Part shown: positions 33,459 through 62,175 of the stretch, piece by piece
Position numbering within the stretch: position 1 is the stretch's first letter
Layout of the letters: each line of letters starts with the position of its first letter
NCBI GenBank assembly: GCA_011033025.1
Contig: WFMF01000057.1
Location: 558,001-622,000 of the forward strand
Direction of reading: 5' to 3'
DNA length: 64,000 nt
Origin: Beroe forskalii
Taxonomy: Eukaryota > Ctenophora > Nuda > Beroida > Beroidae
Translations under genes and position numbers: made by a program
Notes under the pieces: generated by a model
Seen by the model: only the letters and a program-made list of their open reading frames with translations
Database searches by the model: none
Told to the model about the DNA's origin: nothing

Positions 33459-36400
33459 CTGGGGTGTGATGACGTCATTATCGTAGTGAGTTGATGACGT
33501 CATTATCATTACCAAACATGGGCATTTGGAATCTTGCCAGATATTTAAGCTATTTAAGAATGGAAACAAATGCATCCTATTACTTTGGTTTAGCTCTCAT
33601 GACAGCAGTGTTCTCCTCCTCGAAACCAATTATACCATATATGGTATGTTTATTGTTTGGAGAGAGTTATTACCAATTAATATGGGCATTGGGAATCTTG
33701 CCAGATATTTAAGCTATTTTAAGAATGTAAACCAATGCATCTAATTACTTTGGTTTAGCGATCATTACAGCAGTGTTCTCCTCCTCGAATGTTAGGAACT
33801 GGCAGGAAAAGAGCACGTTGTTCTCATCCAGTCCAGTGCTGCTCGTGTAGGCTAGCTCTATCGTAGACTCCGACATCAACGTCAACTGCAGAGGGATTTA
33901 ATCTCAATATCGTTCAATGAGGACGATGTGGGTTTATCATGTAGAGGGATTAATCTCATAACTGAAATATCGGATAATTGTTTATGAACCGCATAATAGA
34001 ATGAATAATTTTCTTTATTCTCTTCTTATCATGAAACGGCTTTTCTGAAATTCAATTAATTTCGTCGAATCGTCAACGTCATCAGGAAATCTCAAATTTG
34101 ATTGTATAAAGTAGTGTTGTAAATTTTAAAATCTCAGTCATTCAATCACTCCTTTGGTCCTTCAGGATGTTTGGATGTGGCATTGATAGCCTACGTATGG
34201 GTGTGCAACTCTTCAAAGTTTTATGGTCACATTAGCTCTCTACAAATGGCCCATTATTGCTGTCAAGTAAGGACTGGGCACTGTTAGAACTTAGGGCAGG
34301 ACTGAATTGGAAGTTCAGGAAGTTCAAAACTCACGTAATCGATGTCAAAACACCCATCTATGGGTCGTTGGAACTTCATCGTGTCCTTCATGTTCCTATC
34401 CATGAGGTCAGGACAAGTTTTCAACATCAGCTTCCCTGCCCTAATAACCTTCCCTGAGGGGCAAGAGTAGGGTTAGTGGTGTAGTGGTATCGATTTGAGC
34501 ACAGGATCAAAAGATCCTGAGTTCGAACCCCGGCCAGCGCCACTGAGCTAAGGGTGAGGGGCAAGTGTTATAATGATATCCTTCACGGCAGTGCTTTCAG
34601 CCTCAGCTGTAAAAGTGAGATGGTAGCTAACTATACAAAAATAGGACGAGTAGAGTGGTTACGAACATCTTCAATTGTAACAATTAAAACGTCGTGTTCT
34701 TGTGATATTTCAATGAATATATCATTCATCATAGTCATACATTCTGAGAAGTTTATTGGTTTCAGAACATACAACTGACTTTTCAACATATTCATATCAC
34801 TAAGCTCTTATCTTAGCTAAATCTATAAATAATTGAATTAAATTAATTTATTGGAAAATGCAATGCATTGCATTTTCCAATAAATTAATTTAATTCAATT
34901 ATTTATAGATTTAGCTAAGATAAGAGCTTAGTGATATGAATATGTTGCGTGTCAGTTGTATGTTCTAACCAATAAACTTCTCAGAATGTATGACTATGAT
35001 GAATGATATATTCATTGAAATATCACAAGAACACGACGTTTTAATTGTTACAATTGAAGATGTTCGTAACCACTCTACTCGTCCTATTTCTGATTAAATT
35101 GACGACGAAATCCCTATTCTACACACCATAGCTAACTATAATTTCGTTGTTAGCTAGAAGTGGGTTGAGGTTCATTACCATCCTTTAAAGGGGAGAAGGG
35201 GGGCCGGGGGGACTAAAAAATTAATGGCATTGAATCTGCTATTTTTCGATAAAATGAGGATATTACAATTCATTGCAATTAATCATTAAATTAAATGACA
35301 TTGAATCTGCTATTTTTTGATAAAATGAGAAGATTGTAACATATTGCAATTAATCATTGAATTTAATGACATTAGATATGCTGTTTTTTCATAAAATGAG
35401 GATATTACAATGCATTGCAATTTATTCTCACCCGAGTTGTCGAAGTAGACAAAGAAAGGGAACAGGGTCGTCCAGCAGAGTTTTTCTAGCTGACGTTGGT
35501 TTTCCTCTTTGATACAGCCTATATCGAAGATCTTCAATTTCTGAAATTAAATTGAGTTCTTTGAGATCCATATATGAAAGAGTACATTTTTACTCAGAAT
35601 CCCTAATTCTATTAGCCAATTTCGAGGGTAGTTGTAGGCGTGCATTTCCTGCTATGCTCTAAGCGTAAATTATTGCATTCCCAGCCATGCTCTTAGCGTA
35701 TATAAAGATGTTTTTGTCGCATATGAACATTCATGAAAAGTATAAAAATCTATCTCATTTCCCAGTATCTGAACCTGGTTGTCCATCTGCACGTTGATGT
35801 TGTGGAAGAACCTGGCTTCTCCTCCGATGTTCTTAGACTCCACCTCCTGCAGCACTACCTTACACTTCTTACTCGACGACACGATCTCATCCTGGTGGGA
35901 ATTTAAGGCAGTCTGGAAGAATGCCGACTCGGTTTAGGCGGAATCCTTAGGCGGATCCAATCAAGATTTCAGACCTCTTATGCGGAATCTTAGTTATGTT
36001 TTATAATTTGGGTTTGTGTTGATACACACAATTTGTATCGTATCAGCCTAAATTTTGAAAATTTGACAAGACTGAAGTTGACAGAGGCCCTTTTGGTAAA
36101 CTTATTGTAAACTGGTGGTTAATTTGTGATGGAGTTGTGGTAAACTAATGATATTTTTATGTCAAAGTGGTGGTAAACTTATGGTAAAGTGGTGGTTAAC
36201 GTATGGTAAACTATAATGAGAAAAGTTGCCCTTCCATTTTCCCACTCACCCCCACATTGACGTCAGCAGCCACGTCCTCTGCCGCGTCTTTTCCCAGGAA
36301 CTCAGCCTAGGTGCAGATGTATAACGTTAATAAATACGTGCGAAAATACGTAAAAAAATACGTGAAAATGATTCATAACTTCCTATGAAAACGTGTCCTA

Positions 36401-39400
36401 CTTTTTGACGTTTTTATAAAAATATTTTTATCAAACCTTGGTGCAGATGTAGGTGACGAAGCCGAGCACGAACTTTGAGTACTTGTCGGTGCTGAGGACG
36501 GCGATCATCCGGTATCCGACCTTCTTTTCTGGAAATACCTGCAATGAGTTTCATATGTCAGGGATAGGGAAATACCTGGGGTTTTATAGAACCAAGGGGC
36601 ATGTAGAGCGCAACAATCATAAACTTTCCTGGAAATATCTGCAGGGATTCTAATGTACCCCATGTTGGAGTTTCATCTGGTTTTATATTTCAGAGAATGT
36701 GCTGTGAGCTGGGCCCTCAGTGTTTCTTAAGGGGGGGGGGGGGGGGGCTTACCCCTCATATTTTGGAAAACACGAATTTGAGATATGAATTGGCCAGAAC
36801 GTGTACCAACATTTTTCTTCTTCCCTGGAAATGCCTGCAGGGAGCAGAGCAACACCTGAACAAAGCCGGTTTCAGCTCCTTGTTTAACATGCCGTTCAGC
36901 AAGGATATCCCCAGTGTTTTAATTGTTTTCCATCCTTTGAAAAATGTTAAACCTACGGTCAACAAACATCATGATCCATGACATAACGCTAAGTCTGATA
37001 GTTGCAAAAGTTGTGACAAATATTTGCTTTGTATTGAACTTGAATGAGGTTTGATTGAGAGGAGTCAAATGAAAAGCTGTAAAGTGTAATTATGTAACTA
37101 GTTGACCTTACAGAAGTCTTGAACAATACTACTTGTTGGCCTTACAAAAGTCTTGAACAATACTATTTATCACTCTTGTCCAATTCTAGCTCCAATATTC
37201 TTTGTAATTTATTACAATGTCTGGAAGTGATTGTGTCAAGTTTTACAATATATTGTTATAAAGAAGGCTAGATAAAGAAGGCTAGTTAAAGAAGGCTAAA
37301 TACTAGGTTACAAAAACTCCGTGACATTTGCGTTGGATCATCCATGACTATATCGTTTGGATATAAATAGTCAACCACCGGCAATTCTCGTTCAAATATT
37401 CCTACAACCTATCCAAGATGAAGCTGCTGCTGCTGTCTGCACTGCTTTGTGTCTCTCACAGTGTCAAAGACCACGCTGACAACATCCCTGCCATGTTCCA
37501 GGCTGCCATGATGAAATATCGGGGAGAAGACGTGACGACGCAAGGACGCATGGCGTCCTCAGAAAAGAAGGAGCGACTGGAGAACTTCAGGAAGACCGTG
37601 AAGCTCGTTGAGAAGATAAATGATGATCACTCCAAGGGGTATACTGGTGCTATCAACTTCCTTTCTGTCATGACTAAGGAAGAAAAGGATGCTTTGCTGA
37701 ATCTGAAGGTAATGAATGACACAACTCACTTATATAATCAACCTTAAATCTGTCATCCTCAGCTGAAGATGGTAATCACATGATTTTTCAAAGTTCTTGA
37801 TTTATCATTTAAAGTTTAAACGATTTCAACTTACTCCTATAGGTAATGAATGAGACTGGAGCCGACGACTTTGTTTCCAGACGAACCAGGAGGCACCACG
37901 AGGAGCTGCCAACTGCCGTGGATTGGGTGGCAAGAGGAGCTCAGCCAGCTGTAAAAGACCAAGGACAATGTGGCAGTTGCGGGATGTTCTCCGCTGCCAG
38001 TGCCCTTGAGGGTAACTACTTCATCGCCACCGGCAAGCTCGTTGCCTTCGCAGAACAGGAGTACCTTGACTGTCTGATGGAACACCGGGGACGGGGAAAC
38101 ACGGGGTGTTCTGGTGTTTGGATGGATTGGGCTTACAACTACAACAAGGACACGGGCAGAATGGGAGCGCTGGCAGACTTGGACTATGTGGCAGAAGACC
38201 GAGCATGTGACGTATCGGGCGTTCCTGATGCCATGGTGGAAGCTGTGGTGACTGGAGTAGACATGTCCATGAGGGGGTCAGATGCAGCCCTCCTTGAAAC
38301 AGCAGCTCACCATGTAGTGGCAGTAGCTATCCTGGTGGTGGAACAGTTCGGAGCCTACCGCTCTGGGGTCTTCTCTTGTCAAGGAGACTGTGACTGTACA
38401 AACTACATCAACCATGCGGTTACCATAGTCGGGTATGCACCGGGGTACTGGAATGTGAGGAATTCCTGGGGCTCATGGTGGGGTGATGGAGGTTACATCA
38501 GGATGAGCAGAGCTCAAGACAACATCTGCAACATCAACAGGTATGCCACTCTGCCAGTTGTGGAGTGTAGGAGTGGCATGACTTGTGAGGGATGGGAAGA
38601 GGAGGAGGAGGAGGAAGAGGAAGAAGAAGAAGAGGAAGAAGAGGAGGAGGAGGTTGATGTGGGAGAAAACGTAGCATGTGGGGAGATACAGCACTATGGA
38701 GGACTCTGTGTGGACATGGGTGAACACAATCACGAGGACCACTCTGACCCTGCTGTCTTGACGTCAGCAGGTTGTAGCAGAGAGTTCTGCCTCACTGACA
38801 GGGGGTATCTCCTGGATCAACCATCAGGGAAGTGCCTCTCTGTGGATAACCGGAGAGCGCTGGATGAGATGGTAAAGTTTGTGTCGTGTGGTGAGGCAGA
38901 GCAATGGGAGACAACTAGTGTGGGATTCAGAGTGAAGGCTGCCCCTGAAATGTGCTGGCACCCTCATAAGGGGTCAGCTAGACCGAGTGAGGGTACCAAT
39001 GTGGTGATTTACACATCGTGTAATGAGGAACGGCTAACTTTCAAGATACAGGAAAACATTTGTTGGGAAGCAAAAAGTGGGATGAAATTCACGAAGAGCC
39101 TCAAGATCGACAATAAGATTGTCAAATTCAAGAAGAATCAACTTGACAAAGCCAAGGACGTGTGCTTGAACACAGAAGGATGCGATGGGCTTTATCTACA
39201 CAAGGGTCGTAAACTGCGACTAGCTCGCGGGGAGGTTGTGAATTCCGATAACAGTAAGGAGAAGGTGGTTGTGAAAGTTGGATGTGAGGATGCCTGCGCT
39301 GAGGGCACAGTGATGTGTGGTGATGGGGTGTGCAGACATATTCACATGTGTTAGATCCATGGGACTATCAGGTGAGAGTGAAAAATGCATTATGGTGATT

Positions 39401-40798: not shown

Positions 40799-40799
40799 C

Positions 40800-43310: not shown

Positions 43311-43316
43311 TGTTAG

Positions 43317-43432: not shown

Positions 43433-46400
43433 GTTTGAATAACTTCCCTGAGCTAGGCTGGTGATTTTCCACTCAATATAATGAGAACTTTTTGTTTGTA
43501 AATATTTCAATAGCCATTGTTAGCAAACTGAAATTTCAGTGTTGGAAGGTTTGAATATTTGGTGGAACTTATATATTGAAATTGGGAGTAATCATCAGCT
43601 GCTTTGGCGCAGATGAAGTTGAGTTTATATTTATTCCTCATCAACGAACTCCCCACTCTATAAGGCATGCCAATGACGTCATCAACTCCCCATGACGTCA
43701 TCAACTCCCCACTCTAACCCCTGACTATAACGTTATCAACTCCCCACTCTAACCCCTGATAATGACGTCATCAGGTGCCGATGACCGGCTCGCGAGGCTC
43801 CACCCCCACGGAGTTCATTTCCCGGAAGCACGGAGTGGAACCTGAGATCCTGGCGGAGAGGGTCCGCAATGTCCTCAAATTCATGAACTCCAGGTACATA
43901 TTGACCAATCAGAGCGCAAGACAAATTTGGCAGCTTGCACTCTGATTGGTTAGTGGTTACTCATCTTGACCAATCACAGTTAAGGCTGAGAACTGCCTGT
44001 GATCGTCGACCAATCAGTGCGTGAGATGAATGACAGGCGTCAGTGTGTGCTCTGATTCGTTAATCGTTAGTGATCCATCATTTTCAAGTTTATGAAATTA
44101 TGAACTCTCGGTTAAGTGACTAATCTCTGTGATCTTGCACATTGATTGACTTTATAACTCAGCAAAAGAGCCGAATTATGAAAAATCAAACCTGTGCGTA
44201 GTTGCGTAACTTAAAAATGGACGTTACGTCCTGGACTATGAGGCTCAGCTTACTAGCTGACTAGCAATTAGCCAGTAGCCGCTGATATCCAATATTAGGC
44301 GGCAAGAAGACAATAAATAGTCCAAAAAGCGTTAAGGCTCTGTTATTAACTTTTCTCAACTATCATTTGAATTTAACACGAATCATAACATTATCGCCAA
44401 TATAACCTTCCTCCCGTTGCAGGGATCAGCGACCTCTGTGGAGCTACGAGGAGATCACGCCTCAAAACCTGAACATCGGAAGTCTGCATCTCATGCACAC
44501 TTTCCTGGGATCCGTGAGTACCAATATTCTTGAGTGGGCACAAAACTGCAGTGTGACGTTATCAATTCGCGATTTTAAACCCTAACGCTGACGTCACCCT
44601 CTAATTCTCCCAGGTTTTGGGGGTGTTCGAGGCGTTGGTGGAGACGGATTTCAAGGCTCAGATGTGCGCGGAGACGCTCAGTTGGGCCGTACACTGCGGA
44701 CAACGGCACTATGCCGGCCGGAGCTTCGAGGTTTGGGGGGGTTTAAACTGCGGACAGCGGCACTATTTGGGGGGGGTTAAACTGCGGACAACGGCACTAT
44801 GCAGGCCGGAGCTTCGAGGTTTGGGGGGAGGGGGGTTAAAATGCGGACAACGGCACTATGCAGGCCGGAGCTTTGAGGTTGGGGGGGGGGGTAAACTGCG
44901 GACAACGGCACTATGCCGGCCGGAGTTTCGAGGTTTGGGGGGGGGGGTTAAACTGCGGACAACGGCACTATGCCGGCCGGAGGTTGGGGGGTTAAACTGC
45001 GGACAACGGCACTATGCCGGCCGGAGCTTCGAGGTTTGGGGGGGTTAAACTGCGGACAACGGCACTATCATGCAGGCCGGAGCTTCGAGGTTTGGGGGGG
45101 GGGTTAAAATGCGGACAACGGCACTATGCAGGCCGGAGCTTCGAGGTTTGGGGGGGGTTAAACTGCGGACAACGGCACTATGCCGGCCGGAGTTTCGAGG
45201 TTTGGGGGGGGGTTAAACTGCGGACAACGGCACTATGCAGGTCAGAGTTTCGAGGTTTGGGGGGGTAAACTGCGGACAACGGCACTATGCCGGCCGGAGC
45301 TTCGAGGTTTGGGGGGGGGGTTAAACTGCGGACAACGGCACTATGCCGGCCGGAGTTTCGAGGTTTGGGGGGGGGGGTTAAACTGCGGACAACGGCACTA
45401 TGCAGGTCGGAGTTTCGAGGTTTGGGGGGGGGGTAAACTGCGGACAACGGCACTATACCGGCTTTCGGACAACGGTTTGGGGGGGGGTTAAACTGCGGAC
45501 AGCGGCACTATGACGGCCGGAGTTGGGGGGGTTAAACTGCGGACAACGGCACTATGCTAACCCTGGGCCGGAGTTTCGAACCCTGGGGGGTTTAACGCGG
45601 ACACCATACATCCATTTCTAATCCCTGATAATACCCAGATATTCCGCTGCCTACGCACGGAGTTAACTCCCATTTCCTTCTGGATAAACCCAGATATTTC
45701 GGAGGCTTATGGATTTGGGGGGGGTTAACCCCTCTCAAACGGTATATGCCGGCCGTTTCTTAAACTGCTGATTTAACAGTTCTAATCCCTGTTATTGAGA
45801 GTAATGTGTGATTTTGTCACCTGCAGGTAAATATTTCCTTTTCCCATTTGAACCCCCCAGAACCTGTTTAAAACATATTTCATTCTAACCCCTTATTATA
45901 AATGGTTGAACATATTTCATTGCTAAACCCCCTAATGCCCCGGAGTATTTTTAACCCTACGGACAACGGCAAAACATGCATCACCAACTCCCATTTGAAC
46001 CCCATTTTAATGGGGATATTCCTGGACTGACATGTTGCTGTTTGAAGTTAACCCCCCATTCTAATCCCCGATATTAATAAATATTCCCTTGTGTCCCATG
46101 AAACCCCATATTTGGGGTTTAAAAACATATTTCTAACCCTGTTTTAATGCCATCCCTCCCCATTCTAACCCCTTATTTTAATGCCCAGATATTCCGCTGC
46201 CTGCTCACGGAGTTAACTCCCCATTCTAATCCCCGATATTACCCAGATATTCCGCTGCCTACGCACGGAGGGCCATGTTTCTAATCCCTTGGAAACGGCT
46301 CATTCTCCCCTTTCCTGGTGCCTACGGGGGGGTTAAACAACCCCTTATTTGTGCCATTTGAAACCCCCAGATATTTCGGGGCCTGCGTTTTAACTCTCAT

Positions 46401-49400
46401 TTACTTGTGTTCCAACCTTTTTTACCCTGCCAAAAACATATTCGTGTTTCGGTGCCTACGCACGGAGTTAACTCCCCATTCTAATCCCCGATATTACCCA
46501 AATTCCGCTGCCGTTAACTCCTCATTCCCAATCCCCGTGTTAGATATTCCCTCCTGTTCAGGTTAACTATGTTGTGTTTGATAATGCCCAGATATTCCGC
46601 TGCCTGCGCACGGAGTTAACTCCCCATTCTAATCCCCGATAATGCCCAGATATTCCGCTGCCTACGCACAGAGTTAACTCCCCATTCCAATCCCTGATAA
46701 TGCCCAGATATTCCTCTGTCTGCGCACGGAATTAACTCCTCATTCTAACCCCTTCTTATAAGCCATCCTCATCTCCTCATTCTAACCCCTTATTATAAGC
46801 CATCCTCAACTCCTCATTCTAACCCCTTCTTATAAGCCATCACCAACTCTTCATTCTAATCCCCGATATTACCCAGATATTTCGGTGCCTCCTGTTAAAA
46901 CAGTTTCCTTTTTTGAAAGGTCCTGCCTGGCTTATGGATCACGTGTGCGATACGGACGACTCTCAAACGGTATACTTTAGATTCTCAGATGATTTAACAG
47001 TTGGGGTGTAAATATGTTTTAAACAGGAAACCCTCTCCTGTTCAAAATATTTTTCCTTGTATTCGAAACCCCCTCCTGTTTAAAACATATTTCCTTGTAT
47101 TTGAAACCCCCTCCTGTTTAAAACATATTTCCTTGTGTTTGAAACGCCCTCCTGTTTAAAACATATTTCCTTGTGTTTGAAAAACACATTTCCTTGTGTT
47201 TAAACCCCTTCTGAATTAATTTTATATATTTCCAACACTGCAAGATTACTATACACACTATACACACTATACACACAATAAACCCCTCCTGTACAGGGCT
47301 ATGTTGTGGAGTGCCTCCTCACGCTGGAGTGTAATACTCTCCTCCTCGGTGAACGGATCCACTCCGAACTCTTGCCCCAATTCAAAAGTAAAAAAACGTT
47401 GGAGATAAGCCAACCGCCATGTACGTAACCCATAAGTGTGCACATGCATCGATCGATGAAGGGAACGATAAAGACGCGCATTTTACAGAATTTCTGTCGA
47501 AAGCACAGCGTTTTCACGCGTTATTATCGATCGATCCATGTCACACATGTGGGCAATTCCTACTTACGTAACGCGCGTATGTGTGCAGATGGATCGATCA
47601 AAAGACCCATCAAAAGAACGCGCAAATTACTGTGCGCGCGCAAAGCTGTAATTTATTAGCTTTTATCATTGAAATTTGCGCATTTTTTGACGGGTCTTTC
47701 GATCGATCCATGTGCACAGATACGCTTTATTAAAACCACGCTATCCTAACTCCGAGTAGTCGCCCTCAGGCGGATAGCTCTGTCTCCGATCTCTCGGATC
47801 CACCGCTCCACTGGTCCCAGCCAGAGTTTCTGTACCTGGAGCGCCTACTCCAGGACTGTACTCTGTCACGGGACATGATCTGTCCGGAACTGTTCGAGAT
47901 TAGGGACATCGAGGATATCCTATTTGATATTTATAAGTAGGGGTGATATTTGTAATCTGGTGTCTGTGAATGTGCTGTCACATTATTACATTAATTGTTA
48001 GATGGGGCTGCCCCCCCCCCATAATAAAAGGTGGGTCTAACAGGGCTTCCGTATTAAAGGGGGTGGAATATTGTCTGTTTGAGTTAAGGGATATCGAGAA
48101 TATCAGCTTTAAATAGGACATTATGATTGTATGTGGTGTCTGGAATGTCACTTGGAAGTGAAGTGTGACCTCACATTATGACATTATGGGCAGGGCTCAA
48201 CCGATTTCTCGGTCTCGGTTGTGAATCCTGCCCTCGGTTGTGAATCCTGTCCTTGGTTGTGAATCCTGCCCTCGGCCGATCCTTGGCCATGGGAGCCTGG
48301 GAATGGTAATCTCATTGCACGAGGTTTCGGATAAAGCACAAAATGTGGATGTATCGTAATGCGTGCAGTGATTGTCGTGTTTTAGTCAGGCATGACAACT
48401 GTATTAACTTTATTAACTCTTATTTCAGATGGAGATAGAAATGATTATTAATTAGTAAAATAATTTCAGGTGGAGAAATATTTGGATTATCGCCCCTCCA
48501 AAACTCTGTTGATTGAAACTCGTCACAATTCCCCATCTTTAAATCGATAACATGCTTTAATCCTTTATTTATTTTGTATCCTTACTCCCCATTACCATTA
48601 ACAATAAATCAATAAAATGTCGTTCCCTCAGTAAAACCGACACTCCCCATTACCATTAACAATAAATCAATAAAATGTCGTTCCCTCAGTAAAACCGACA
48701 CTCCCCATTACCATTAACAATAAATCAATAAAATGTCGTTCCCTCAGTAAAACCGACACTCCCATAACCATTAACAATAAATCAATAAAATGTCGTTCCC
48801 TCAGTAAAACCGACACTCTCCATAACCCATTAACAATAAATCAATAAAATGTCGTTCCCTCAGTAAAACCGACACTCCCCATTACCATTAACAATAAATC
48901 AATAAAATGTCATTCCCTCAGTAAAACCGACACTCCCCATTACCATTAACAATAAATCAATAAAATGTCATTCCCTCAGTAAAACCGACACTCCCATTAC
49001 CATTAACAATAAATCAATAAAATGTCGTTCCCTCAGTAAAACCGACACTCCCATTACCATTAACAATAAATCAATAAAATGTCGTTCCTCAGTAAAACCG
49101 ACACTCCCCATTACCATTAACAATAAATCAATAAAATGTCGTTCCCTCACATCTGCTGGGACACTCCCCATCTGATTAACAATAAATCAATAAAATGTTG
49201 TTCCTCAACCGACGGCCGTCTAAATCAATAAAATGTCGTTCCTCAGTAAAACCGTATACCATTAACAATAAATCGTAAAATGTCATTCCCTCACGGCACT
49301 AAATCTGCTGGGAGGCAACAATAAATCATGTCAACAATCTCAACAAAACCTGGGAGGCAGCATTAACAATAAATCAATAAAATGTCTTCCCTCAGTAAAA

Positions 49401-52400
49401 CCGCATCCCCATGCAGTTAACAATAAATCAATAAAATGTCGTTCCCTCAGTAAAACATCTGCCATTAACAATAAATCAATGAAATGTCATTCAGGTCAGT
49501 AAAACGACACTTCTAACATCTGCTGGCAGGCAGCACGGCATGTCGTTCAGGTAAAACATCTCTGCTGGGGGCAGCACGGCATCTGATGAGTTCAGGTGAG
49601 GAGAGTGTTGTATTGTTCTAACATCTGCTGGGAGGCAGCACGGCATCTGATGAGTTCAGGTGAGGAGAGTGTTGTATTGTTCTAACATCTGCTGGGAGGC
49701 AGCACGGCGTCTGATGAGTTCAGGTGAGGAGAGTGGTATTGTTCTATGAGTTCAGGTGAGGAGAGCACGGCATCTGATGAGTTCAGGTGAGGAGAGTGTT
49801 GTATTGTTCTAACATCTGCTGGGAGGCAGCACGGCGTCTGATGAGTTCAGGTGAGGAGAGTGTTGTATTGTTCTAACATCTGCTGGGAGGCAGCACGGCA
49901 TCTGATGAGTTCAGGTGAGGAGAGTGTTGTATTGTTCTAACATCTGCTGGGAGGCAGCACGGCGTCTGATGAGTTCAGGTGAGGAGAGTGTTGTATTGTT
50001 CTAACATCTGCTGGGGGCAGCACGGCATCTGATGAGTTCAGGTGAGGAGAGTGTTGTATTGTTCTAACATCTGCTGGGAGGCAGCACGGCATCTGATGAG
50101 TTCAGGTGAGGAGAGTGTTGTATTGTTCTAACATCTGCTGGGGGCAGCATCTGATGAGTTCTGGGAGGCAGCACGGGCATCTGATGAGTTCAGGTGAGGA
50201 GAGTGTTGTATTGTTCTAACATCTGCTGGGAGGCAGCACGGCATCTGATGAGTTCAGGTGAGGAGAGTGTTGTATTGTTCTAACATCTGCTGGGAGGCAG
50301 CACGGCATCTGATGAGTTCAGGTGAGGAGAGTGTTGTATTGTTCTAACATCTGCTGGGGCAGCACGGCGTCTGATGAGTTCAGGTGAGAGTGTTGTATTG
50401 TTCTAACATCTGCTGGGAGGGCAGCACGGCGTCTGATGAGTTCAGGTGAGGAGAGTGTTGTATTGTCTAACATCTGCTGGGGGCAGCACGGCGTCTGATG
50501 AGTTCAGGTGAGGAGAGAGTGTTGTATTGTTCTAACATCTGCTGGGAGGCAGCACGGCGTCTGATGAGTTCAGGTGAGGAGAGTGTTGTATTGTTCTAAC
50601 ATCTGCTGGGAGGCAGCACGGCGTCTGATGAGTTCAGGTGAGTTTGTTCAGCTGGGAGGCAGCACGGCGTCTGATGAGTTCAGGTGAGGAGAGTGTTGTA
50701 TTGTTCTAACATCTGCTGGGGGCAGCACGGCGTCTGATGAGTTCAGGTGAGGAGAGTGTTGTATTGTTCTAACATCTGCTGGGAGGCAGCACGGCGTCTG
50801 ATGAGTTCAGGTGAGGAGAGTGTTGTATTGTTCTAACATCTGCTGGGGGGCAGCACGGCATCTGATGAGTTCAGGTGAGGAGAGTGTTGTATTGTTCTAA
50901 CATCTGCTGGGGGGCAGCACGGCATCTGATGAGTTCAGGTGAGGAGAGTGTTGTATTGTTCTAACATCTGCTGGGGGCAGCACGGCGTCTGATGAGTTCA
51001 GGTGAGGAGAGTGTTGTATTGTTCTAACATCTGCTGGGAGGCAGCACGGCATCTGATGAGTTCAGGTGAGGAGAGTGTTGTATTGTTCTAACATCTGCTG
51101 GGAGGCAGCACGGCATCTGATGAGTTCAGGTGAGGAGAGTGTTGTATTGTTCTAACATCTGCTGGGAGGCAGCACGGCGTCTGATGAGTTCAGGTGAGGA
51201 GAGTGTTGTATTGTTCTAACATCTGCTGGGAGGCAGCACGGCATCTGATGAGTTCAGGTGAGGAGAGTGTTGTATTGTTCTAACATCTGCTGGGGGCAGC
51301 ACGGCATCTGATGAGTTCAGGTGAGGAGAGTGTTGTATTGTTCTAACATCTGCTGGGAGGCAGCACGGCATCTGAGTTCAGGTGGGAGAGAGTGTTGTAT
51401 TGTTCTAACATCTGCTGGGGGCAGCACGGCGTCTGATGAGTTCAGGTGAGGAGAGTGTTGTATTGTTCTAACATCTGCTGGGAGGCAGCACGGCATCTGA
51501 TGAGTTCAGGTGAGGAGAGTGTTGTATTGTTCTAACATCTGCTGGGAGGCAGCACGGCATCTGATGAGTTCAGGTGAGGAGAGTGTTGTATTGTTCTAAC
51601 ATCTGCTGGGGGGCAGCACGGCATCTGATGAGTTCAGGTGAGGAGAGTGTTGTATTGTTCTAACATCTGCTGGGAGGCAGCACGGCGTCTGATGAGTTCA
51701 GGTGAGGAGAGTGTTGTATTGTTCTAACATCTGCTGGGAGGCAGCACGGCGTCTGATGAGTTCAGGTGAGGAGAGTGTTGTATTGTTCTAACATCTGCTG
51801 GGAGGCAGCACGGCGTCTGATGAGTTCAGGTGAGGAGAGTGTTGTATTGTTCTAACATCTGCTGGGAGGCAGCACGGCGTCTGATGAGTTCAGGTGAGGA
51901 GAGTGTTGTATTGTTCTAACATCTGCTGGGAGGCAGCACGGCATCTGATGAGTTCAGGTGAGGAGAGTGTTGTATTGTTCTAACATCTGCTGGGAGGCAG
52001 CACGGCGTCTGATGAGTTCAGGTGAGGAGAGTGTTGTATTGTTCTAACATCTGCTGGGAGGCAGCACGGCGTCTGATGAGTTCAGGTGAGTGTTGTATTG
52101 TTCTAGCATCTGTCTGATGAGTTTAGGTGAGGAGAGTGTTGTAATGTTCTAACATCTGCTGGGGGCAGCACGGCGTCTGATGAGTTCAGGTAGGAGAGTG
52201 TTGTATTGTTCTAACATCTGCTGGGAGGCAGCACGGCATCTGATGAGTTCAGGTGAGGAGAGTGTTGTATTGTTCTAACATCTGCCAGGGAGGCAGCACG
52301 GCATCTCTGATGAGTTCAGGTGAGGAGAGTGTTGTATTGTTCTAACATCTGCTGGGGGCAGTGGTTACAGCGACCAATCAGTTCAGGTGAGAGTGGTTGT

Positions 52401-55400
52401 ATTGTTCTAACATCTGCTGGGAGGCAGCACGGCGTCTGAATGAGTTCAGGTGAGGAGATGTTGTATTGTTCTAACATCTGCTGGGAAGCACGGCGTCTGA
52501 TGAGTTCAGGTGAGGAGAGTGTTGTATTGTTCTAACATCTGCTGGGGAGGCAGCACGGCGTCTGCCTGAGTTCAGGTGAGCATTGTTGGGGGGCACCCAT
52601 CTGATGAGTTCTGATGAGTTCAGTGAGGAGTGTTGTATTGTTCTAACATCTGCTGGGAGGCAGCACGGCATCTGATGAGTTCAGGTGAGGAGAGTGTTGT
52701 ATTGTTCTAGCATCTGCTGGGGGGCAGCACGGCATCTGATGAGTTCAGGTGAGGAGAGTGTTGTATTGTTCTAACATCTGCTGGGGCAGCACGGCATCTG
52801 ATGAGTTCAGGTGAGGAGAGAGTGGTGTATTGGTCTAATATCTGCTGGGAGGCAGCACGGCGTCTGATGAGTTCAGGTGAGGAGAGTGGTTATTGGTTCA
52901 CATCTGCAATTCTAATTTACCGATGAGTTTATTCTGAGGAGAGTCTTCATTTCATCAAATATCTCCTAAACCCTTTGTGGAGACGGCCCTCAAATCATTT
53001 CACTAACAGTTTGATACATAGTTCAGGTAGCCCCTAATTTGTATTGTTCTAACAGGGGGTAGGCAGACGGCGTCATGAGCCAATTTTGAGATTGGTGTAT
53101 TGTTCTGACTGTTTTGGTTTTTGGCAACCAATTCTGATCTGCTTATCGTGCAATAACTAATGATAGAGCATTTTGCAGATTAAAATGCTCATGCAAATAA
53201 GTTGAATCGAAAGTGCAATAATTTATAATAGAGCATTTTGCAATTAAAATGCTCATGCAAATAAGTTCTATAATTGCACTCCTAAAAATTTTGCTCTGAA
53301 TAGTTATGGGATGATGATTATAGAACCCTCTGACGTTTTCTGTAATATATAGACACTTGCCTGATCGGGTCCATATTGGTCTAGACCCTCGCCCTACGGG
53401 CTCGGGCCAAAACCAGATACATCCCTCGGGCTAACGCCCTCTGGAACTATCCCAAAATGGACCCGATAGGCGTGTGTCTATGTGTTTTATAGATTCGTCC
53501 GGTTATTATAGTGAGGATTTAGCCAGCGGGAGGGATAAAAAAATAGAGCGATAGACACGCTGCCAGAATCCCTCTATCAAATACATTCACTGTCTCCATC
53601 ACATAGTTTCAGTGTATTGTACTCCTTTCAAACAACACGCACTCTTACTAGCAAATGTATACCAAATCAAATGCAAATGTTTCGTTCCCGCGAGAATCTC
53701 TCTAAACATGTAATTACCGTCCCACGTGACTCGCACACGTGCCACTGTTACTGTATCAAATCAAGGTCACGTGTTGCGCGCGCGCACGTGCCACTCGTTT
53801 CGAGCACTATCCTTCAGCAAACGGTTTCTCATTCTCTCATTCACAGTTTCTGTTTTGTTTCGCCATTCTGGCTCTGCTTTACTTGTTTACACGGCGAGAA
53901 ATTCCATTTACCTCTTTTGCATGCTCTGCAGATTATATCGTTATTATTATTATTCGTTAATATCGTTTTTGTTGTATTGATTCTTTGATCGATATTGTTT
54001 TTGTTGTTGCATTTGTAATCGCACAATATAATAGTGCTCTTTGACACATACTCCTGTTTAATTCATTAAATTATCAATTATTTCTGTTCACGAACCATCT
54101 TTCTCCTTCAGTGATTATTTGTATGAAAATTTTCATTCGTATCATAATTTTCATTGTTTCGTTGCTTTAGTTAACATTTTTTTTAAAGGCATATCGTAAT
54201 GAATTTCAGACTTATTTGTATTACACACGGTAACATGATTTGTAGCTGTCACTGCGCGTCACGTGACCAACTTTATCATATAGCAGCTGTGATTCATCTT
54301 TTCACCTTTTCATAAGTCAAATTGACGAACAATAGGTTTTCATCGAAAGTGCAATAATTTATAATAGAGCATTTTGCAATTAAAATGCTCATGCAAATAA
54401 GTTGAATCGAAAGTGCAATAATTTATAATAGAGCATTTTGCAATTAAAATGCTCATGCAAATAAGTTTTAATATCTTTTTCCTCACATTGGCTAATACAC
54501 TAAGAGCATGGCTTGGGATACGCTAATTACAGTTATTGCACTCGGCTTCGCCTCGTGCAATAACTGAAAGTTATCGCACTCGGCTTCGCCTCGTGACGAT
54601 AACCCAAATTATTTGCACTCGGCTTCGCCTCGTGCAATAATTTTTATTAGCGCATCCCAAGCCATGCTCTAAGCGTATATTAGTTTTCAAAGTGAGAAGG
54701 CATTATCATTTTAATAATTTTTATGAAATTATTTGACTCACTTGATATTCTGCTATTTCGGACAGGGGTCGCACTAACAGTGAGCAGAACAACCTCCGAG
54801 TTAAAGCGTACAGTTTGTCCAGCTTCCGAGACTCCTTCCCTGTGCTACCCATGGAGTACATACCCCAGGTACCGACCAATCAAAAGCCTCGTCACATTGT
54901 ACCATCAACCAATCATAGCCCAGGTGATGTGCTCACGTGGTTCCATCAACCAATCATAGCCCAGGTGATGTGATCACGTGGTAACATCAACCAATCATAG
55001 CCCAGGTGATGTGCTCACGTGGCCACAGCGACCAATCAGCGCACGAGTTTACAGTCAACTCGCCTGTTGATTGGAACGTGAATAATTCACTTGATTAGAT
55101 ATATTCATGATCAAATTATAAAACTGATTTTACATACCTCTGTGAAAATTCTGGATTTTCATCGGTGTCTATGATACATAGACACTTGCCTGATCGGGTC
55201 TATATATTTGTTTAGACCCTCACCCTACGAGCTGCGTTTCTAAACCGGATACATCCCTCGGGCTTACGCCCTCGGGAGCTATCCCAAAATGGGACCGACC
55301 TGCGCGTGTCTATGTATTTTTTAGAATTTTTATTAATTTTTTATTCCCAGGAGTACACGTTGAAAGAGTTGCTCACGGATGACGACATTTTCATCATCAC

Positions 55401-56482
55401 ACGGACTTTCTGGTGCTCCATGTGCCTCAGGTTACTGACCTATGCTATACAGAAATTCTTTGAATTCTTTTTAGCTCACCCGACACCCTTTCATTCCCCC
55501 TTATACTCCATACCTCAAACCCCCGACCCCTTTCCTTCGCAACCCCTTATCTTTCCTAAACCCTTAGTGCTATTCCCCTCCCTCCATCTCCATTCTCCCT
55601 CCCTAACCTTCTCCCCCGTTCCCTTAAAACCCACTTTACCCCCCTTTCCTAACCTCCTCCATTCGCCTTCCTAGCCCCTCCCCTCTTAACCCCCTTCTAA
55701 CCCAATAGCCCCACCCTCATCCCAACCCCTTCCTTTTACTCACCCCCCTCCAGACCCCTTCCCACCCACTTTCTTCCCCTTCCTCGCCCCTCCTACCCCC
55801 TTTCCAACGTCGCCTCCTAACCCCATGCCCTCAGTGAAAGTGATCTGGAGCACGAGTTCGGGTTTGCTGTCCTGTCTCTTACCCCATTTCTCAAAACCCT
55901 CCCACATTTCTCAAACCCCTCCCTCCAGTGAAAGTGATCTGGAGCACGAGTTCGGGTTTGCTGTCCGGCTGTTGTCATGTCTCTTACCCCATTTGTCAAA
56001 CCTCCTCCCCCCATTTGTCAAACCCCCTCCCCCATCCCCCCTATTTCTCAAACCCCTCCCTCCAGTGAAAGTGATCTGCAGCACGAGTTCGGGTTTGCTG
56101 TCCGGCTGCTGTCCTGTCTCTTACCCCATTTCTCAAACCCCCTCCCCCATTTCTCAAACCCCTCCCTCCAGTGAAAGTGATCTGGAGCACGAGTTTGGGT
56201 TTGCTGTCCTGTCTCTTACCCCATTTGTCAAACCTCCTCCCCTCATTTCTCAAACCGCCTCTCCCATCCCCCCCCCATTTCTCTAACTCCATCCTCCCTC
56301 CAGTGAAAGTGATCTGGAGCACGAGTTCGGGTTTGCTGTCCGGCTGCTGTCCTGTCTCCTGGACTGCATCTGTCTCACGGACACCTACACAGAGAATCTT
56401 CTGGAGAAAGTCCTGGATGATATGAACTGGGCAAACTTCCCCGGGGTCATTCACCTGTTCTTGAAGGGCGTCCCCACGCTAG
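43317..56482 (+). CDS. fry: Furry (FRY/FRYL) homologue, internal part, overall extent of recognised exons
   Basis: Ten or so exons on the + strand encode pieces that follow the order of the furry protein. The most diagnostic is exon 44614–44730, ending 'HCGQRHYAGRSFE', continued by 'IFRCLRTE' (human FRY family: RHYAGRSFQIFRAL). 'FWCSMCL' + 'SESDLEHEFGFAVRLLSCLL' also matches the family. Furry proteins are about 3,000-residue, cytoplasmic, repeat-built scaffolds. They act with NDR/LATS kinases and MOB in cell morphogenesis and at microtubules. Both ends of the gene lie outside the recognised exons. Between nearly every pair of exons there is a tandem array whose unit includes an exon edge and its splice site. 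One exon after 'IFRCLRTE' could not be found intact. Confidence 0.75.
43660..43774 (+). repeat. TGACGTCATCA repeat ending at a furry acceptor
   Basis: 'aatgacgtcatcaactcccc' and close variants occur three to four times. The last copy forms the acceptor itself (tgacgtcatcag|GTGCCG). Confidence 0.6.
43775..43893 (+). CDS. fry: furry exon
   Basis: Phase 0 start; reads 'VPMTGSRGSTPTEFISRKHG' then 'VEPEILAERVRNVLKFMNS' and ends with AG of an Arg codon at CCAG|gtacat. The helical 'LAERVRNVLKFMNSR' leads into the next exon without phase conflict. Confidence 0.65.
43894..44422. other. furry intron with CCAATCA repeats
   Basis: Four 'gaccaatca'/'tgattggtt' words occur at 43906–44060 in loosely repeated 70–90 base units. 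They resemble CCAAT-box (NF-Y) sites but lie in an intron. Nothing else is seen. Confidence 0.45.
44423..44513 (+). CDS. fry: furry exon
   Basis: Acceptor cgttgcag, donor GGATCC|gtgagt; 91 bases (1 + 90). It reads 'DQRPLWSYEEITPQNLNIGS' then 'LHLMHTFLGS'. 'RPLWSYEEIT' matches the furry family's 'PLWAYEDIT'-type segment. Confidence 0.75.
44614..44730 (+). CDS. fry: furry exon ending in the RHYAGRSFE signature
   Basis: Acceptor tctcccag; 39 codons 'VLGVFEALVETDFKAQMCAE' then 'TLSWAVHCGQRHYAGRSFE'; donor GAG|gtttgg; phase 0 on both sides. 'RHYAGRSF' is the best single furry signature in the window. The last about 38 coding bases and the donor are tandemly amplified immediately downstream (44731–45560). 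Confidence 0.85.
44693..45570 (+). repeat. Minisatellite made of the furry 'CGQRHYAGRSFE' exon end plus donor (about 15 copies)
   Basis: The units of 50–60 bp read 'aactgcggacaacggcacta', 'tgccggccggagcttcgag', then the donor 'gtttgg' and a variable G-run, then 'ttaa'. The first unit is the true exon end. The other units keep the coding frame of the exon and a donor, so each is a decoy 5' splice site. G-run length varies from 5 to 10, giving frame changes between units. Long chance frames on both strands come from this array. Confidence 0.9.
45640..46880 (+). repeat. Degenerate array of the next furry acceptor and exon start ('IFRCLRTE')
   Basis: The motif 'cccagatattccgctgcctg' followed by 'cgcacggagttaactcc' and 'ccattctaatccccgataat' recurs near 45.64, 46.19, 46.25, 46.45, 46.59, 46.65 and 46.71 kb, with many partial copies between. 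It holds an acceptor (…tgcccag) followed by eight furry codons. The region also contains 'taaccccttattataagcc' repeats. Confidence 0.75.
46592..46615 (+). CDS. fry: furry exon start 'IFRCLRTE' (best of several copies)
   Basis: 'HYAGRSFE' + 'IFRCLRTE' continues the family signature in phase 0. The copy at 46592 is chosen because it has the cleanest acceptor and codons (CTGCGCACG). None of the copies continues into the helix expected next in furry proteins, so the real exon is truncated here, collapsed in assembly, or disrupted by the array. Confidence 0.4.
47030..47220 (+). repeat. 36-bp tandem repeat upstream of a furry acceptor
   Basis: Four to five units of 'aaccccctcctgtttaaaac' plus 'atatttccttgtgtttg'. 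The same 'acccctcctgt' forms the acceptor of the exon at 47297 (cccctcctgtacag). Confidence 0.6.
47297..47348 (+). CDS. fry: furry exon 'GYVVECLLTLE'
   Basis: After acceptor tcctgtacag the frame reads 'GYVVECLLTLECNTLLL', matching the 'GYV.E.LLTLE' segment of furry proteins. The donor CCTCG|gtgaac is preferred; a second candidate is AAA|gtaaaa at about 47390. Both leave phase 1, which does not fit the next recognised exon, so one more exon is probably missing. Confidence 0.6.
47770..47940 (+). CDS. fry: furry exon, 3' edge unclear
   Basis: After acceptor gccctcag the frame reads 'ADSSVSDLSDPPLHWSQPEF', then 'LYLERLLQDCTLSRDMICPE' and 'LFEIRDIEDILFDIYK', ending at TAG. Furry does not end here, so the donor is more likely TTATAA|gtaggg just before the stop. 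The last 60 or so bases and the donor region are duplicated 184 bases downstream (48075 onward), where the copy is broken. Confidence 0.5.
   Translation, partial: ADSSVSDLSDPPLHWSQPEFLYLERLLQDCTLSRDMICPELFEIRDIEDILFDIYK
47941..48589. repeat. Duplicate of the preceding exon edge, then 'ggttgtgaatcctg' triplicate
   Basis: 48075–48150 repeats 'tgttcgagattagggacatc'-type sequence and the following intron with many differences. 48215–48285 has three copies of 'ctcggttgtgaatcctgcc'. No intact exon is seen. Confidence 0.5.
48590..49490 (+). repeat. 58-bp minisatellite with a 3' splice-site-like end
   Basis: About 15 units of 'accattaacaataaatcaat', 'aaaatgtcgttccctcag' and 'taaaaccgacactcccc'. Each unit has a pyrimidine-rich 'ttccctcag', a plausible acceptor, and an AATAAA-containing stretch. 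Units become mixed with the 64-bp array after 49.14 kb ('cacatctgctggga' inserted). Confidence 0.85.
49491..52905 (+). repeat. 64-bp minisatellite: exon end TASDEF + donor GTGAGG + intron, about 50 copies
   Basis: The consensus unit is 'cacggc(a/g)tctgatgagt', 'tcag|gtgaggagagtgttgt', 'attgttctaacatctgctgg', 'gaggcag'. The CAG|GTGAGG is a strong donor, and TTCTAAC…CAG resembles a branch point and acceptor. The 21 bases between acceptor-like and donor-like sites read Thr-Ala-Ser-Asp-Glu-Phe in the phase that would join the next furry exon (54766, needs two bases AG before G). It looks like an amplified furry exon 3' end. Which unit, if any, is the true exon cannot be told. Confidence 0.9.
52906..53346. 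repeat. Array edge and 'aaaatgctcatgcaaataag' repeat
   Basis: From 53130 the unit 'gagcattttgca' – 'ttaaaatgctcatgcaaata' occurs twice; two more copies are at 54.34–54.47 kb. It is an internal inverted repeat (gagcattttgc / gcaaaatgctc-like). Confidence 0.5.
53347..53482. mobile_element. About 136-bp MITE, copy 1
   Basis: 'atagacacttgcctgatcgg' at the left and its near reverse complement 'ccgataggcgtgtgtctat' at the right enclose GC-rich inverted words ('gccctacgggctcgggc'). A second copy lies at 55177. It is non-coding. Confidence 0.65.
53483..54342. other. furry intron, nothing recognised
   Basis: AT-rich with several CACGTG E-box-like words (53.72–53.80 kb). The open frames at 53.6–54.0 kb lack splice context and motifs. 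Confidence 0.4.
54343..54670. repeat. Two 64-bp 'tgctcatgcaaataag' units and a 168-bp inverted-repeat element
   Basis: 54343–54470 holds two tandem copies of the 53.2 kb unit. 54503–54670 is bounded by 'agagcatggcttgggata' and 'tatcc'-less mirror 'gcatcccaagccatgctct'. Inside it, 'gcactcggcttcgcctcgtg' occurs three times as hairpin-like words. Fragments of the same family end lie at 35.65–35.70 kb. Confidence 0.6.
54766..54868 (+). CDS. fry: furry exon
   Basis: Acceptor tcggacag, donor CCCCAG|gtaccg; 103 bases (1 + 102). It reads 'GRTNSEQNNLRVKAYSLSS' then 'FRDSFPVLPMEYIPQ'. Its entry phase fits the exon end amplified in the 64-bp array, and its exit phase fits the next exon. Confidence 0.6.
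54869..55075 (+). repeat. 49-bp tandem repeat with CCAATCA and CACGTGG, 3–4 copies
   Basis: The units 'catcaaccaatcatagccca' + 'ggtgatgtgctcacgtgg' start just after the donor of the exon at 54868. Each also contains 'ccaggtgatg', a donor-like word similar to the true 'cccaggtacc'. Confidence 0.65.
55177..55315. mobile_element. About 138-bp MITE, copy 2
   Basis: Same ends and interior order as 53347–53482 ('catagacacttgcctgatcg' … 'cgcgtgtctatg'), with about 15–20% differences. Confidence 0.65.
55351..55430 (+). CDS. fry: furry exon
   Basis: Acceptor ttattcccag, donor CCTCAG|gttact; 80 bases. It reads 'EYTLKELLTDDDIFIITRTF' then 'WCSMCL' plus two bases. It joins to the exon at 56304 as 'FWCSMCLSESDLEHEF', closely matching the furry family. 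Confidence 0.75.
55470..55831 (+). other. Strongly pyrimidine-rich intron segment
   Basis: About 360 bases are almost purely C/T on the + strand (runs such as 'ccccttcctcgcccctccta'). There are many AG-less stretches followed by the amplified acceptor. No repeat unit is clear. Confidence 0.55.
55832..56303 (+). repeat. Five tandem copies of a furry acceptor plus exon start
   Basis: Acceptor 'ccctccctccag' followed by 'tgaaagtgatctggagcacg' and 'agttcgggtttgctgtcc' occurs at about 55.83, 55.93, 56.06, 56.17 and 56.30 kb. The first four break off after 45–65 coding bases into 'cttaccccatttctcaaac'. Only the fifth continues as the full exon. Confidence 0.85.
56304..56482 (+). CDS. fry: furry exon 'ESDLEHEFGFAVRLL'
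   Basis: Reads 'ESDLEHEFGFAVRLLSCLLD', then 'CICLTDTYTENLLEKVLDDM', then 'NWANFPGVIHLFLKGVPTL'; donor CTAG|gtgagg. '(L)ESD.EHEF..A.RLL' and 'W..FPG...LFLKG' are furry landmarks. This is the last furry exon I recognise; the gene should continue beyond. Confidence 0.8.
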
Positions 56483-56850: not shown

Positions 56851-56852
56851 AG

Positions 56853-59755: not shown

Positions 59756-62175
59756 CTGGGTGGAAGCTATTAGTTCATTCCGCGAAAAAGTGCGCGCGCG
59801 GCGCGCTATCGAAGAGAATTTTGATATCGTCATCATTATCGGTGCGCGCGATGTTTTTGCACGCATGACAATACAAATTACTAATCATAAAAGTTGATCG
59901 ATGAATTTTGACTGATTATTGCACCGCAATTTTCAGAAAAATTAAGCATCATATTTTTTGCTGTACTTTTTAAAAATAATTATTTTTCTAAAGTTGGCTA
60001 ATAGCCAACAACCTTGGCTATTAACTCGCTCGGCAGAGAGCAGGTTGTGAAGCTTGGTCGGAAGGGACACAACCCCTTCTCCATGGGGTCCACCAAGCCG
60101 CCAGGGGACACCAAGCTCCCGTTTACTGTCCCTATCGTGGTGCTCCGGGAGAACTTCTGTGCGTTGCAGTTGAACATGTAGTACCTGCAGAAAACGAGGG
60201 TCTGGGAAGTGTGCTGGTAGGGTACCAAAGGAAAACGAGGGTCTGGGAAGTGTGCTGGTAGGGTACCAAAGGAAAACGAGGATCTGAGAAGTGTGCTGGT
60301 AGGGTTTCATAGGAAAAAGAGGGTCTGAGAAGGGTGCTGGTAGGTTACCAAAGGAAAACTAGGGTCTGAGAAGGGTGCTGGTAGGTTACCAAAGGAAAAC
60401 GAGGGTCTGGGAAGGGTGGTGGTAGGGTACCTGCAGTAAACGAGGGTCTGAGAAGGGTGCTGATAGGGTACCTGCAGAAAACGAGGGTCTGGGAAGGGTG
60501 GTGGTAGGGTACCAAAGGAAAACGAGGGTCTGGGAAGGGTGCTGGTAGGTTACCAAAGGAAAACTAGGGTCTGAGAAGGGTGCTGGTAGGTTACCAAAGG
60601 AAAACGAGGGTCTGGGAAGGGTGGTGGTAGGGTACCTGCAGTAAACGAGGGTCTGAGAAGGGTGCTGGTAGGTTACCAAAGGAAAACGAGGGTCTGGGAA
60701 GGGTGCTGATAGGGTACCAAAGGAAAACGAGGGTCTGGGAAGGGTGCTGGTAGGGTACCAAAGGAAAACTAGGATCTGGGAAGGGTGCTGGTAGGGTACC
60801 TGCGGAAAACGAGGGTCTGGGAAGGGTGGTGGTAGGGTACCTGCGGTAAACGAGGGTCTGGGAAGGGTGCTGATAGGGTACCAAAGGAAAACGAGGATCT
60901 GAGAAGGGTGCTGATAGGGTACCTGCAGAAAACGAGGGTCTGAGAAGTGTGCTGATAGGGTACCTGCAGAAAACGAGGGTCTGGGAAGGGTGGTGGTAGG
61001 TTACCAAAGGAAAACGAGGGTCTGGGAAGGGTGCTGATAGGGTACCTGCAGAAAACGAGGGTCTGGGAAGGGTGCTGGTAGGGTACCAAAGGAAAACGAG
61101 GATCTGAGAAGTGTGCTGGTAGGGTTTCATAGGAAAAAGAGGGTCTGAGAAGGGTGCTGGTAGGTTACCAAAGGAAAACGAGGATCTGGGAAGGGTGCTG
61201 GTAGGTTACCAAAGGTAAACGAGGGTCTGGGAAGGGTGCTGGTAGGGTACCAAAGGAAAACAAGGGTCTGGGAAGGGTGCTGATAGGGTACCTGCAGAAA
61301 ACGAGGGTCTGAGAAGTGTGCTGATAGGGTACCTGCGGTAAACGAGGGTCTGGGAAGGGTGGTGGTAGGGTACCAAAGGAAAACGAGGGTCTGGGAAGGG
61401 TGCTGGTAGGGTACCTGCAGAAAACGAGGGTCTGGGAAGGGTGCTGATAGGTTACCAAAGGAAAACGAGGATCTGGGAAGGGTGCTGATAGGGTACCAAA
61501 GGTAAACGAGGGTCTGGGAAGGGTGCTGATAGGGTACCAAAGGAAAACGAGGGTCTGGGAAGGGTGCTGGTAGGGTACCAAAGGAAAACGAGGATCTGAG
61601 AAGTGTGCTGGTAGGGTTTCATAGGAAAAAGAGGGTCTGAGAAGGGTGCTGGTAGGTTACCAAAGGAAAACGAGGATCTGGGAAGGGTGCTGGTAGGTTA
61701 CCAAAGGTAAACGAGGGTCTGGGAAGGGTGCTGGTAGGGTACCAAAGGAAAACAAGGGTCTGGGAAGGGTGCTGATAGGGTACCTGCAGAAAACGAGGGT
61801 CTGGGAAGGGTGCTGATAGGGTACCTGCGGTAAACGAGGGTCTGGGAAGGGTGCTGGTAGGGTACCAAAGGAAAACGAGGGTCTGGGAAGGGTGCTGGTA
61901 GGGTACCAAAGGAAAGTCCTTGAACTTACCATGATAGGAAGGTGATATAACAGAGACGAATAACTAAATCAAGATAAAGGCAATACTGTATGAGGGGAAA
62001 TATTATAGGGAACACGGAAATGATAATAAAATCTGAAAGCAGATCAGCAGTACCCGTCAACAAATCCATTGTGATGGAACGCTCTGTGAAAGTCGTAGAA
62101 GTACGCTTCATCTACCAGAACAACGCTTCCAAACATGACCACAACCAGCAAGGATAGTTTGACATGGGGCAACAT
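57698..62175 (-). CDS. LDLa-containing seven-transmembrane receptor, complete three-exon gene
   Basis: Exons 62175–62054, 60184–60013 and 59755–57698 join with perfect phase into 783 residues. Order: signal peptide (1–25), a Cys-containing N-terminal domain, LDLa-like modules at about 105–128, 137–166 ('KLCDGIYDCLDRSDE'), 308–324 ('CDGKFDCADKSDEFDC') and 346–362, then seven hydrophobic helices (about 376–397, 421–446, 461–489, 502–527, 619–645, 669–695, 705–728). TM3 ends 'SITRAY' instead of DRY, and TM7 has 'NPVFN' instead of NPxxY. LDLa plus rhodopsin-like helices occur in relaxin-type receptors and mollusc GRL101, but no leucine-rich repeats are seen, so the ligand is unknown. The first intron is filled with a minisatellite. 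Confidence 0.8.
59756..60012. other. Receptor intron 2
   Basis: 257 bases between donor GCCAAG|gttgtt and acceptor cacccag. It contains a GC-rich 'gtgcgcgcgcggcgcgc' patch and a 20-base palindrome at the donor ('atagccaacaaccttggcta'). Confidence 0.55.
60013..60184 (-). CDS. LDLa receptor, exon 2
   Basis: 172 bases (1 + 171). It reads 'YYMFNCNAQKFSRSTTIGTV', 'NGSLVSPGGLVDPMEKGLCP' and 'FRPSFTTCSLPSELIAK'. The three or four cysteines suggest a small extracellular domain. The acceptor 'ctcgttttctgcag' is the same sequence that recurs through the array in the intron before it. Confidence 0.75.
60185..61925 (-). repeat. 41-bp minisatellite built on the acceptor of receptor exon 2, about 42 copies
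   Basis: On the minus strand units read 'cctaccagcacccttcccag', 'accctcgttttc' and then either 'ctgcag|gtac' or 'ctttggtac'. Roughly eight units have the full CTGCAG|GTAC, identical to the functional junction at 60184. Others have changed AG to GG or carry the CTTTGG variant. Variants (ctggta/ctgata, gggtct/ggatct) occur in blocks, and a block of several hundred bases around 61.08–61.50 kb is repeated at 61.56–61.90 kb, indicating unequal exchange of large segments. Confidence 0.9.
62054..62175 (-). CDS. LDLa receptor, exon 1 (signal peptide)
   Basis: Reads 'MLPHVKLSLLVVVMFGSVVL' then 'VDEAYFYDFHRAFHHNGFVD' and ends with two bases of a Gly codon at GACGG|gtactg. It joins exon 2 as 'GFVDGYYMFNC'. 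The hydrophobic core predicts cleavage near residue 20–25. The start is the first ATG and the only one that gives a signal peptide. Confidence 0.7.

Follow-up and report, generated by a model that had tools for sequence, protein, structure and literature searches.

Splice-junction minisatellites of the amphioxus mirage type in a ctenophore genome, found in unrelated genes and on several contigs

Tandem arrays in unrelated genes of this ctenophore carry, in their repeat unit, an exon edge together with its splice site, and the question is whether duplication in this genome is aimed at exon-intron borders or takes them in by chance. An earlier note on this DNA had proposed the former. The window, i.e., the whole 64-kb stretch analysed here, covers positions 558001-622000 of contig C658 in an assembly of 216 Mb and 1134 contigs. 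Its splice junctions were set by hand, with an ab initio gene finder serving as a guide only.

Most of the arrays lie in a furry gene, whose exon query was placed at a single position in the assembly. The following exons were used:

44614..44730, plus strand: exon A, set by sequence reading and frame joining (PF14228, 18.2 bits)
46877..46969, plus strand: exon B, in frame with exons A and C, with copies of its junction and its acceptor taken as live
47297 onwards, plus strand: exon C, 3' end uncertain
47770-47936, plus strand: exon D, provisional
54766-54868 and 55351-55430, plus strand: further exons, set by sequence reading and in-frame joining
56304..56482, plus strand: exon H, acceptor CTCCAG|TGAAAG, with PF14225 across the G/H junction

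Splicing the exons raised the PF14225 match, which crosses the junction at 56304 and lies above its cut-off, from 31.4 to 41.6 bits, while the weak PF14228 match (23.6 bits vs. a cut-off of 27) extends 5 residues past the A/B junction. Both donors tried for exon C (47348 and 47387) left the C/D join out of frame, and since this join is unresolved, junctions 47348, 47770, and 47936 were treated as provisional. A homologue search with a furry query that included the same join returned no significant match among 566 candidates. Four repeat regions belong to this gene:

44693..45580, plus strand: array of the exon A end and its donor, its unit made of the last ~38 exon bases, the donor (CGAG|GTTTGG) and ~17 intron bases
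45600..46876, plus strand: degenerate array of the exon B acceptor, copies of CAG|ATATTCCG...
49561..52907, plus strand: 64-base array in a furry intron, with 50 TTCAGGTGAG and 46 TTCTAAC sites
55830..56303, plus strand: exon H acceptor present four more times in the intron, together with ~55 exon bases

The donor array at 44.7 kb, for which about 15 copies had been claimed, was recovered at 44.69-45.55 kb and counts 17 core units, of which 11 have CGAGGTT intact, the first unit being exon A's own last ~38 bases with the donor 44730|44731. Acceptor copies at 45.6-46.9 kb were likewise found, as nine CAG|ATATT sites ending with that of exon B at 46877, and the five reported at 55.8-56.3 kb correspond to CAG|TGAAAGTGATCT starting at 55832, 55926, 56063, 56169, and 56301, the last of which is taken as live. 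For the 49.5-52.9 kb array the copy number of about 50 stands (50 TTCAGGTGAG sites), whereas its proposed attachment to an exon falls away, as no exon could be tied to it. The donor pair suggested at 47.9/48.1 kb was not upheld either: judged with the provisional donor 47936, what is copied is a stretch of exon lying 30 bases 5' of the donor (23/30), and the donor itself reaches 17/30. Fragments of exon B and its donor are present near 45690-45785 with their order kept. Two mosaic zones (45580-45830 and 49140-49560) consist of 10-40-base fragments drawn from the two arrays on either side, or from exon B with its order kept; in the zone at 49.14-49.56 kb these fragments account for 75% of the sequence. 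The zones could have arisen by template switching, through array sequence overwriting an old duplication, or as a polishing error.

A guanylate-cyclase-like gene on the minus strand was recognised by its match to PF07701, a domain that stands beside soluble guanylate cyclases. Its repeated elements are:

33518..33790, minus strand: two ~120-150-base copies of an exon end and its donor, the exon ending at 33749
36307..36436, minus strand: 130-base intron with a repeated exon end, its acceptor flank ACATCTGCACCTAG matching the last bases of the exon before the intron, ACATCTGCACCAAG|GT
36437..36860, minus strand: exon 36538-36437, its acceptor region copied near 36643 and, on visual inspection, near 36842

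Duplication of the donor at 33749, given earlier as two copies, is confirmed by one 26/30 copy lying 165 bases inside the intron. What had been described as three copies of an exon 1 donor is better read as an acceptor, TTGCAG|GTATTTCCAG, with the exon running from 36538; this is a reading rather than a proof, and the acceptor has a 23/30 copy 100 bases off and, judged by eye, another stretch like it near 36842. Elsewhere in the window, a large near-perfect palindrome at 34810-34930 (centre near 34868) is possibly a transposable element end, and a long ORF at 37843-39354 matches a papain-type peptidase and, weakly and below the cut-off, a ricin-B-lectin, and between the two matches a GGA-type repeat is read as a run of poly-glutamate.

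The third gene is a receptor, with an ORF at 57698-59884 that finds protein matches of up to 53% identity; four of its 22 matches name an organism, in every case Mnemiopsis leidyi, and the best of these share 45-47% identity over most of the query. From this one protein, the animal is very likely a ctenophore. Two features concern us here:

60013..60184, minus strand: receptor exon 2, acceptor CTGCAG|GTAC, with an LCPFRP block common with homologue P0001 (by eye)
60190..61915, minus strand: 41-base unit x 42, indel-free, in receptor intron 1

This array accounts for 1726 of the 1745 bases of intron 1 and comes near both intron ends, and its units have variants common to blocks of units as well as a constant 41-base phase. 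As an acceptor array of about 42 copies, it keeps its unit count (42), while its junction content is weaker than had been stated, with ~4 bases of exon overlap and 13 CAGGTAC sites in the 42 units. Collapsed to one unit, the intron measures ~60 bases, so that a 41-base unit had to adjoin a junction. A separate 84-base tandem array at 56875-57269 consists of tRNA-like units, with one tRNA-Thr called by ARAGORN at 57116-57195.

Junction copies were scored with a 30-base stretch centred on each of 34 window junctions, for which a same-strand copy of at least 23/30 was sought within 4 kb. Six junctions (donors 2/17, acceptors 4/17) have one, namely furry 44730, 46877, and 56304, cyclase-like 33749 and 36538, and receptor 60184, compared with 0/34 in the shuffled control. 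Without the three provisional junctions the figure is 6/31, and the totals are identical whether acceptors 44423 and 59755 or 44429 and 59757 are used. The core observation, that array units hold an exon edge and splice site in unrelated genes on both strands and run into the intron, is thereby borne out.

Genes on other contigs were surveyed with the Myosin_head profile, which gave 78 exon-level matches, 66 of them within 13 stretches, which make up 12 loci once two are joined and were selected for compactness and not randomly. Splice sites were called from profile continuity, frame, and site scores, yielding 35 paired introns and 113 junctions, of which 111 were kept (the doubtful edges C173a donor 1185 and C29 acceptor 177 were left out). 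A copy of at least 23/30 within 1.5 kb exists for 5/111 junctions (donors 0/58, acceptors 5/53), representing four events, vs. 0/111 after shuffling, and a single tandem exon duplication on C225 accounts for two of the five. Repeats of this kind in the myosin genes are:

C29: acceptor array, 69-base unit x 32, ending inside the exon and including exon sequence
C225: acceptor array, 34-base unit x 7.9, TTTCAG|TTCAAC
C163: acceptor repeat, 44 bases x 2
C785: donor-side repeat, 22 bases, its exon part too short for the 30-base test

The C29 acceptor is ambiguous, having two AGs 8 bases apart, both within the unit. With the cases on C29, C225, and C163, the expectation that junction arrays extend beyond the window was confirmed. 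Several other duplications were seen along the way: a myosin exon (profile ~105-170) in two copies 254 bases apart at C225:1041609-1042105 (L031), perhaps mutually exclusive exons; kinesin profile segments 221-264 and 263-302 alternating several times at C291:171201-174881, an exon-pair tandem duplication with possibly alternative exons; and two inverted chaperonin genes with near-equal profile scores at C558:175419-178055 and 214250-216894, either an inverted duplication or both haplotypes assembled.

The statement that no named system matches has to be withdrawn, as the amphioxus "mirages" do (PMC3087553, PMC3902484). In the sections of these two reports that were available, amphioxus is the only source named, and its mirages are built like the present arrays, with splicing that appears normal. 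As in the arrays described here, their unit spans an exon-intron boundary, which can be the 5' as well as the 3' one; AG/GT survives in many copies and is lost from others, and the authentic section stands at the cluster end. In our material a boundary-spanning unit occurs at 6/34 window and 5/111 myosin junctions; both boundaries are involved in the window (donors 2/17, acceptors 4/17) and acceptors only in the myosins; units measure 34-151 bases (95, 100, and 151 being hand-set) compared with ~10-160 bases in mirages; and AG/GT is retained in part (11 CGAGGTT in 17 units, 13 CAGGTAC in 42 receptor units). What differs is the host, here a ctenophore, the size of the largest examined arrays (17, about 32, and 42 units), and the presence of several arrays in one gene. 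The dual-specific AGGT splice sites of UBC, as far as the available part of PMC10809524 describes them, also sit in tandem units that each carry AG|GT, like the 49.5 kb array; the UBC repeats are coding monomers, unlike this intronic array, whose AG|GT sites are candidates only. No report of a ctenophore minisatellite or mirage was found in literature that covered few subscription journals. We conclude that the structure is real and of an already-named kind, mirage-type junction minisatellites, now seen in a ctenophore and on several contigs.

As for their origin, we favour, with a probability of about 0.68, mirage-type minisatellites for which random duplication suffices, the local data needing no aiming device. 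A tandem duplication with breakpoints flanking a splice junction would place an extra exon edge and splice site beside the original, and such extra copies are seen in the sequence; the array would then grow into the intron, one terminal unit joining the exon and the rest leaving as intron, and would probably be nearly neutral. Amplification by slippage and unequal exchange is suggested by the near-identical units, the block-shared variants, and the constant 41-base phase of the receptor array. The sequence itself shows units that run head to tail with an exon edge and splice site, an exon joined to a terminal unit, and a unit number that varies. Because the genome is rich in tandem repeats (TRF coverage of 4-27% in five stretches) and several introns are short once their arrays are collapsed, random duplication would often take in a junction.

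The alternative put forward earlier, preferential nucleation at exon-intron borders, would have a process tied to splicing or transcription make donors the preferred founders of arrays, and we consider it unlikely. If tandem duplication were targeted to junctions, the copy profile should peak there. In the window, copies were found for 6/34 stretches centred on the junction; within the intron, positions 8-30 bases from it gave 4-5/34 and those 45-150 bases from it 9-13/34. The small bump at the junction is due to acceptors (4/17 vs. 2/17 at 8 bases either side) and leans slightly towards targeting, but lies far under the intron interior. The myosin profile instead rises smoothly, from 2-3/111 at 30-75 bases inside the exon through 5/111 at the junction to 6-8/110-111 at 30-150 bases into the intron, and the 0/58 myosin donors with a nearby copy in the 30-base test also argue against preferred donors. 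Crossing was evaluated by placing a unit at random on an intron reduced to one unit per array and computing the chance that it crosses a junction. With hand-set array limits, which favour finding crossings, 6/20 window arrays cross vs. 4.95 expected (P=0.34); with automatic TRF limits 0/22 do vs. 2.51 expected (P of a count this low 0.037), since the program cuts off the first unit, which has diverged. Among the myosin loci, 2/18 arrays cross vs. 1.77 expected under uniform seeding (P=0.56), and in a "touch" test on 31 paired introns, run without one bad intron call (C1, score -7), 3/12 arrays come within 10 bases of a junction vs. 1.43 expected (P=0.15). A strong donor is contained in 7/22 window arrays vs. 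1.6 expected, which counts against a purely random origin, and in four of the 37 arrays of four 50-kb blocks picked regardless of genes vs. 2.0 expected; these 37 arrays show no rank shift of splice motifs relative to non-array segments (mean percentile 0.46 for donors and 0.49 for acceptors). Preferential nucleation is thus not sustained, junction copies being not clearly commoner than copies in the intron interior and crossing arrays equalling random seeding. The samples are small and the window was chosen because of this very pattern. Targeting of exon edges is neither established nor refuted by these data.

A result on the side of a junction-directed process comes from a whole-genome count of close tandem triplets started by a given word, with gaps of 12-42 bases. 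The donor word CAGGTGAG starts 1679 triplets in 8858 occurrences (19.0%) and MAGGTAAG 1019 in 15654 (6.5%), compared with 46 in 7031 (0.65%) for the near-miss control CAGATGAG, one base off, and 91/3602 (2.5%), 220/16765 (1.3%), and 121/3449 (3.5%) for three reversed control words; as reversed words share the base composition, composition does not explain the excess. Large arrays weigh heavily here, since the first 100 CAGGTGAG rows among the matches listed belong to five arrays. These five have unrelated units by eye and are therefore not one family, which favours junction-directed duplication. Counted by array over the contig ranges listed and allowing for word frequency, MAGGTAAG exceeds CAGATGAG by 13 to 2 (P=0.11) and CAGGTGAG by 5 to 0 (P=0.054). 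Donors are over-represented among array copies genome-wide, with a possible per-array excess at P 0.05-0.11, in counts that cover words anywhere and do not place them at real junctions, which weakens their bearing on a junction-directed process. The triplet excess exceeds what tolerance alone would give, and this is evidence against purely random duplication. A 29-base array with 61 CAGGTGAG sites lies at 8708-11538 of the window, and its unit also forms an array at C2:1053955-1054902; it looks like a dispersed minisatellite family and not a local one.

Less probable still is a filter on spliceable duplications combined with intron gain, by which duplications bearing AG|GT would be tolerated since they can be spliced, and some would become or lengthen introns. 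The cyclase-like intron 36436-36307 fits it best: its two ends repeat one another at 12/15 bases, where the maximum among 2450 mismatched pairs is 10, and such a pattern would be left by a tandem duplication that created the intron or captured its acceptor, a putative sign of intron remodelling. In repeating the exon end at its acceptor, this intron resembles intron gain by tandem AGGT duplication as described in the available sections of PMC3087553, where intron gain from mirages is also proposed for the amphioxus globins. The pattern is clear in only 1/50 introns, and the main arrays differ from such gain in that they duplicate an existing junction and create no intron; they use an unrelated far splice site, so that the intron extends beyond the repeat. 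Donor words, moreover, should gain only slightly from tolerance, most of the genome presumably tolerating any array.

That the arrays were inflated or scrambled by assembly or polishing is very improbable: the mosaic zones at 45.58-45.83 and 49.14-49.56 kb, the G-runs of 6 to 11 in the 44.7 kb array, one amphioxus mirage aberrantly assembled in a draft (PMC3087553, in part), and PGBD5 repeat counts that differ between two amphioxus sequences (PMC3902484, in part) would suit it, while the receptor array, whose 42 units of 41 bases are all free of indels, the like structures on other contigs, and the amphioxus PGBD5 repeats upheld by re-examined reads (PMC3902484, in part) argue against it.

If the random origin preferred here is correct, junction arrays are an ordinary outcome: genomes with many tandem repeats and short introns would make them untargeted. 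Tentatively, and with odds well short of even, donors may instead be preferred founders or growers of arrays genome-wide in this ctenophore, as may hold in cephalochordates, which would hint that introns are remodelled from their edges by a general mutational mechanism linked to transcription or splicing; the donor-word excess offers a concrete and cheap test of such splice-site-tied duplication. Junction arrays are a natural system for how introns lengthen and arise, and the occurrence of mirages in several genes of a ctenophore, with many copies each, points to a feature that recurs across distant animals.
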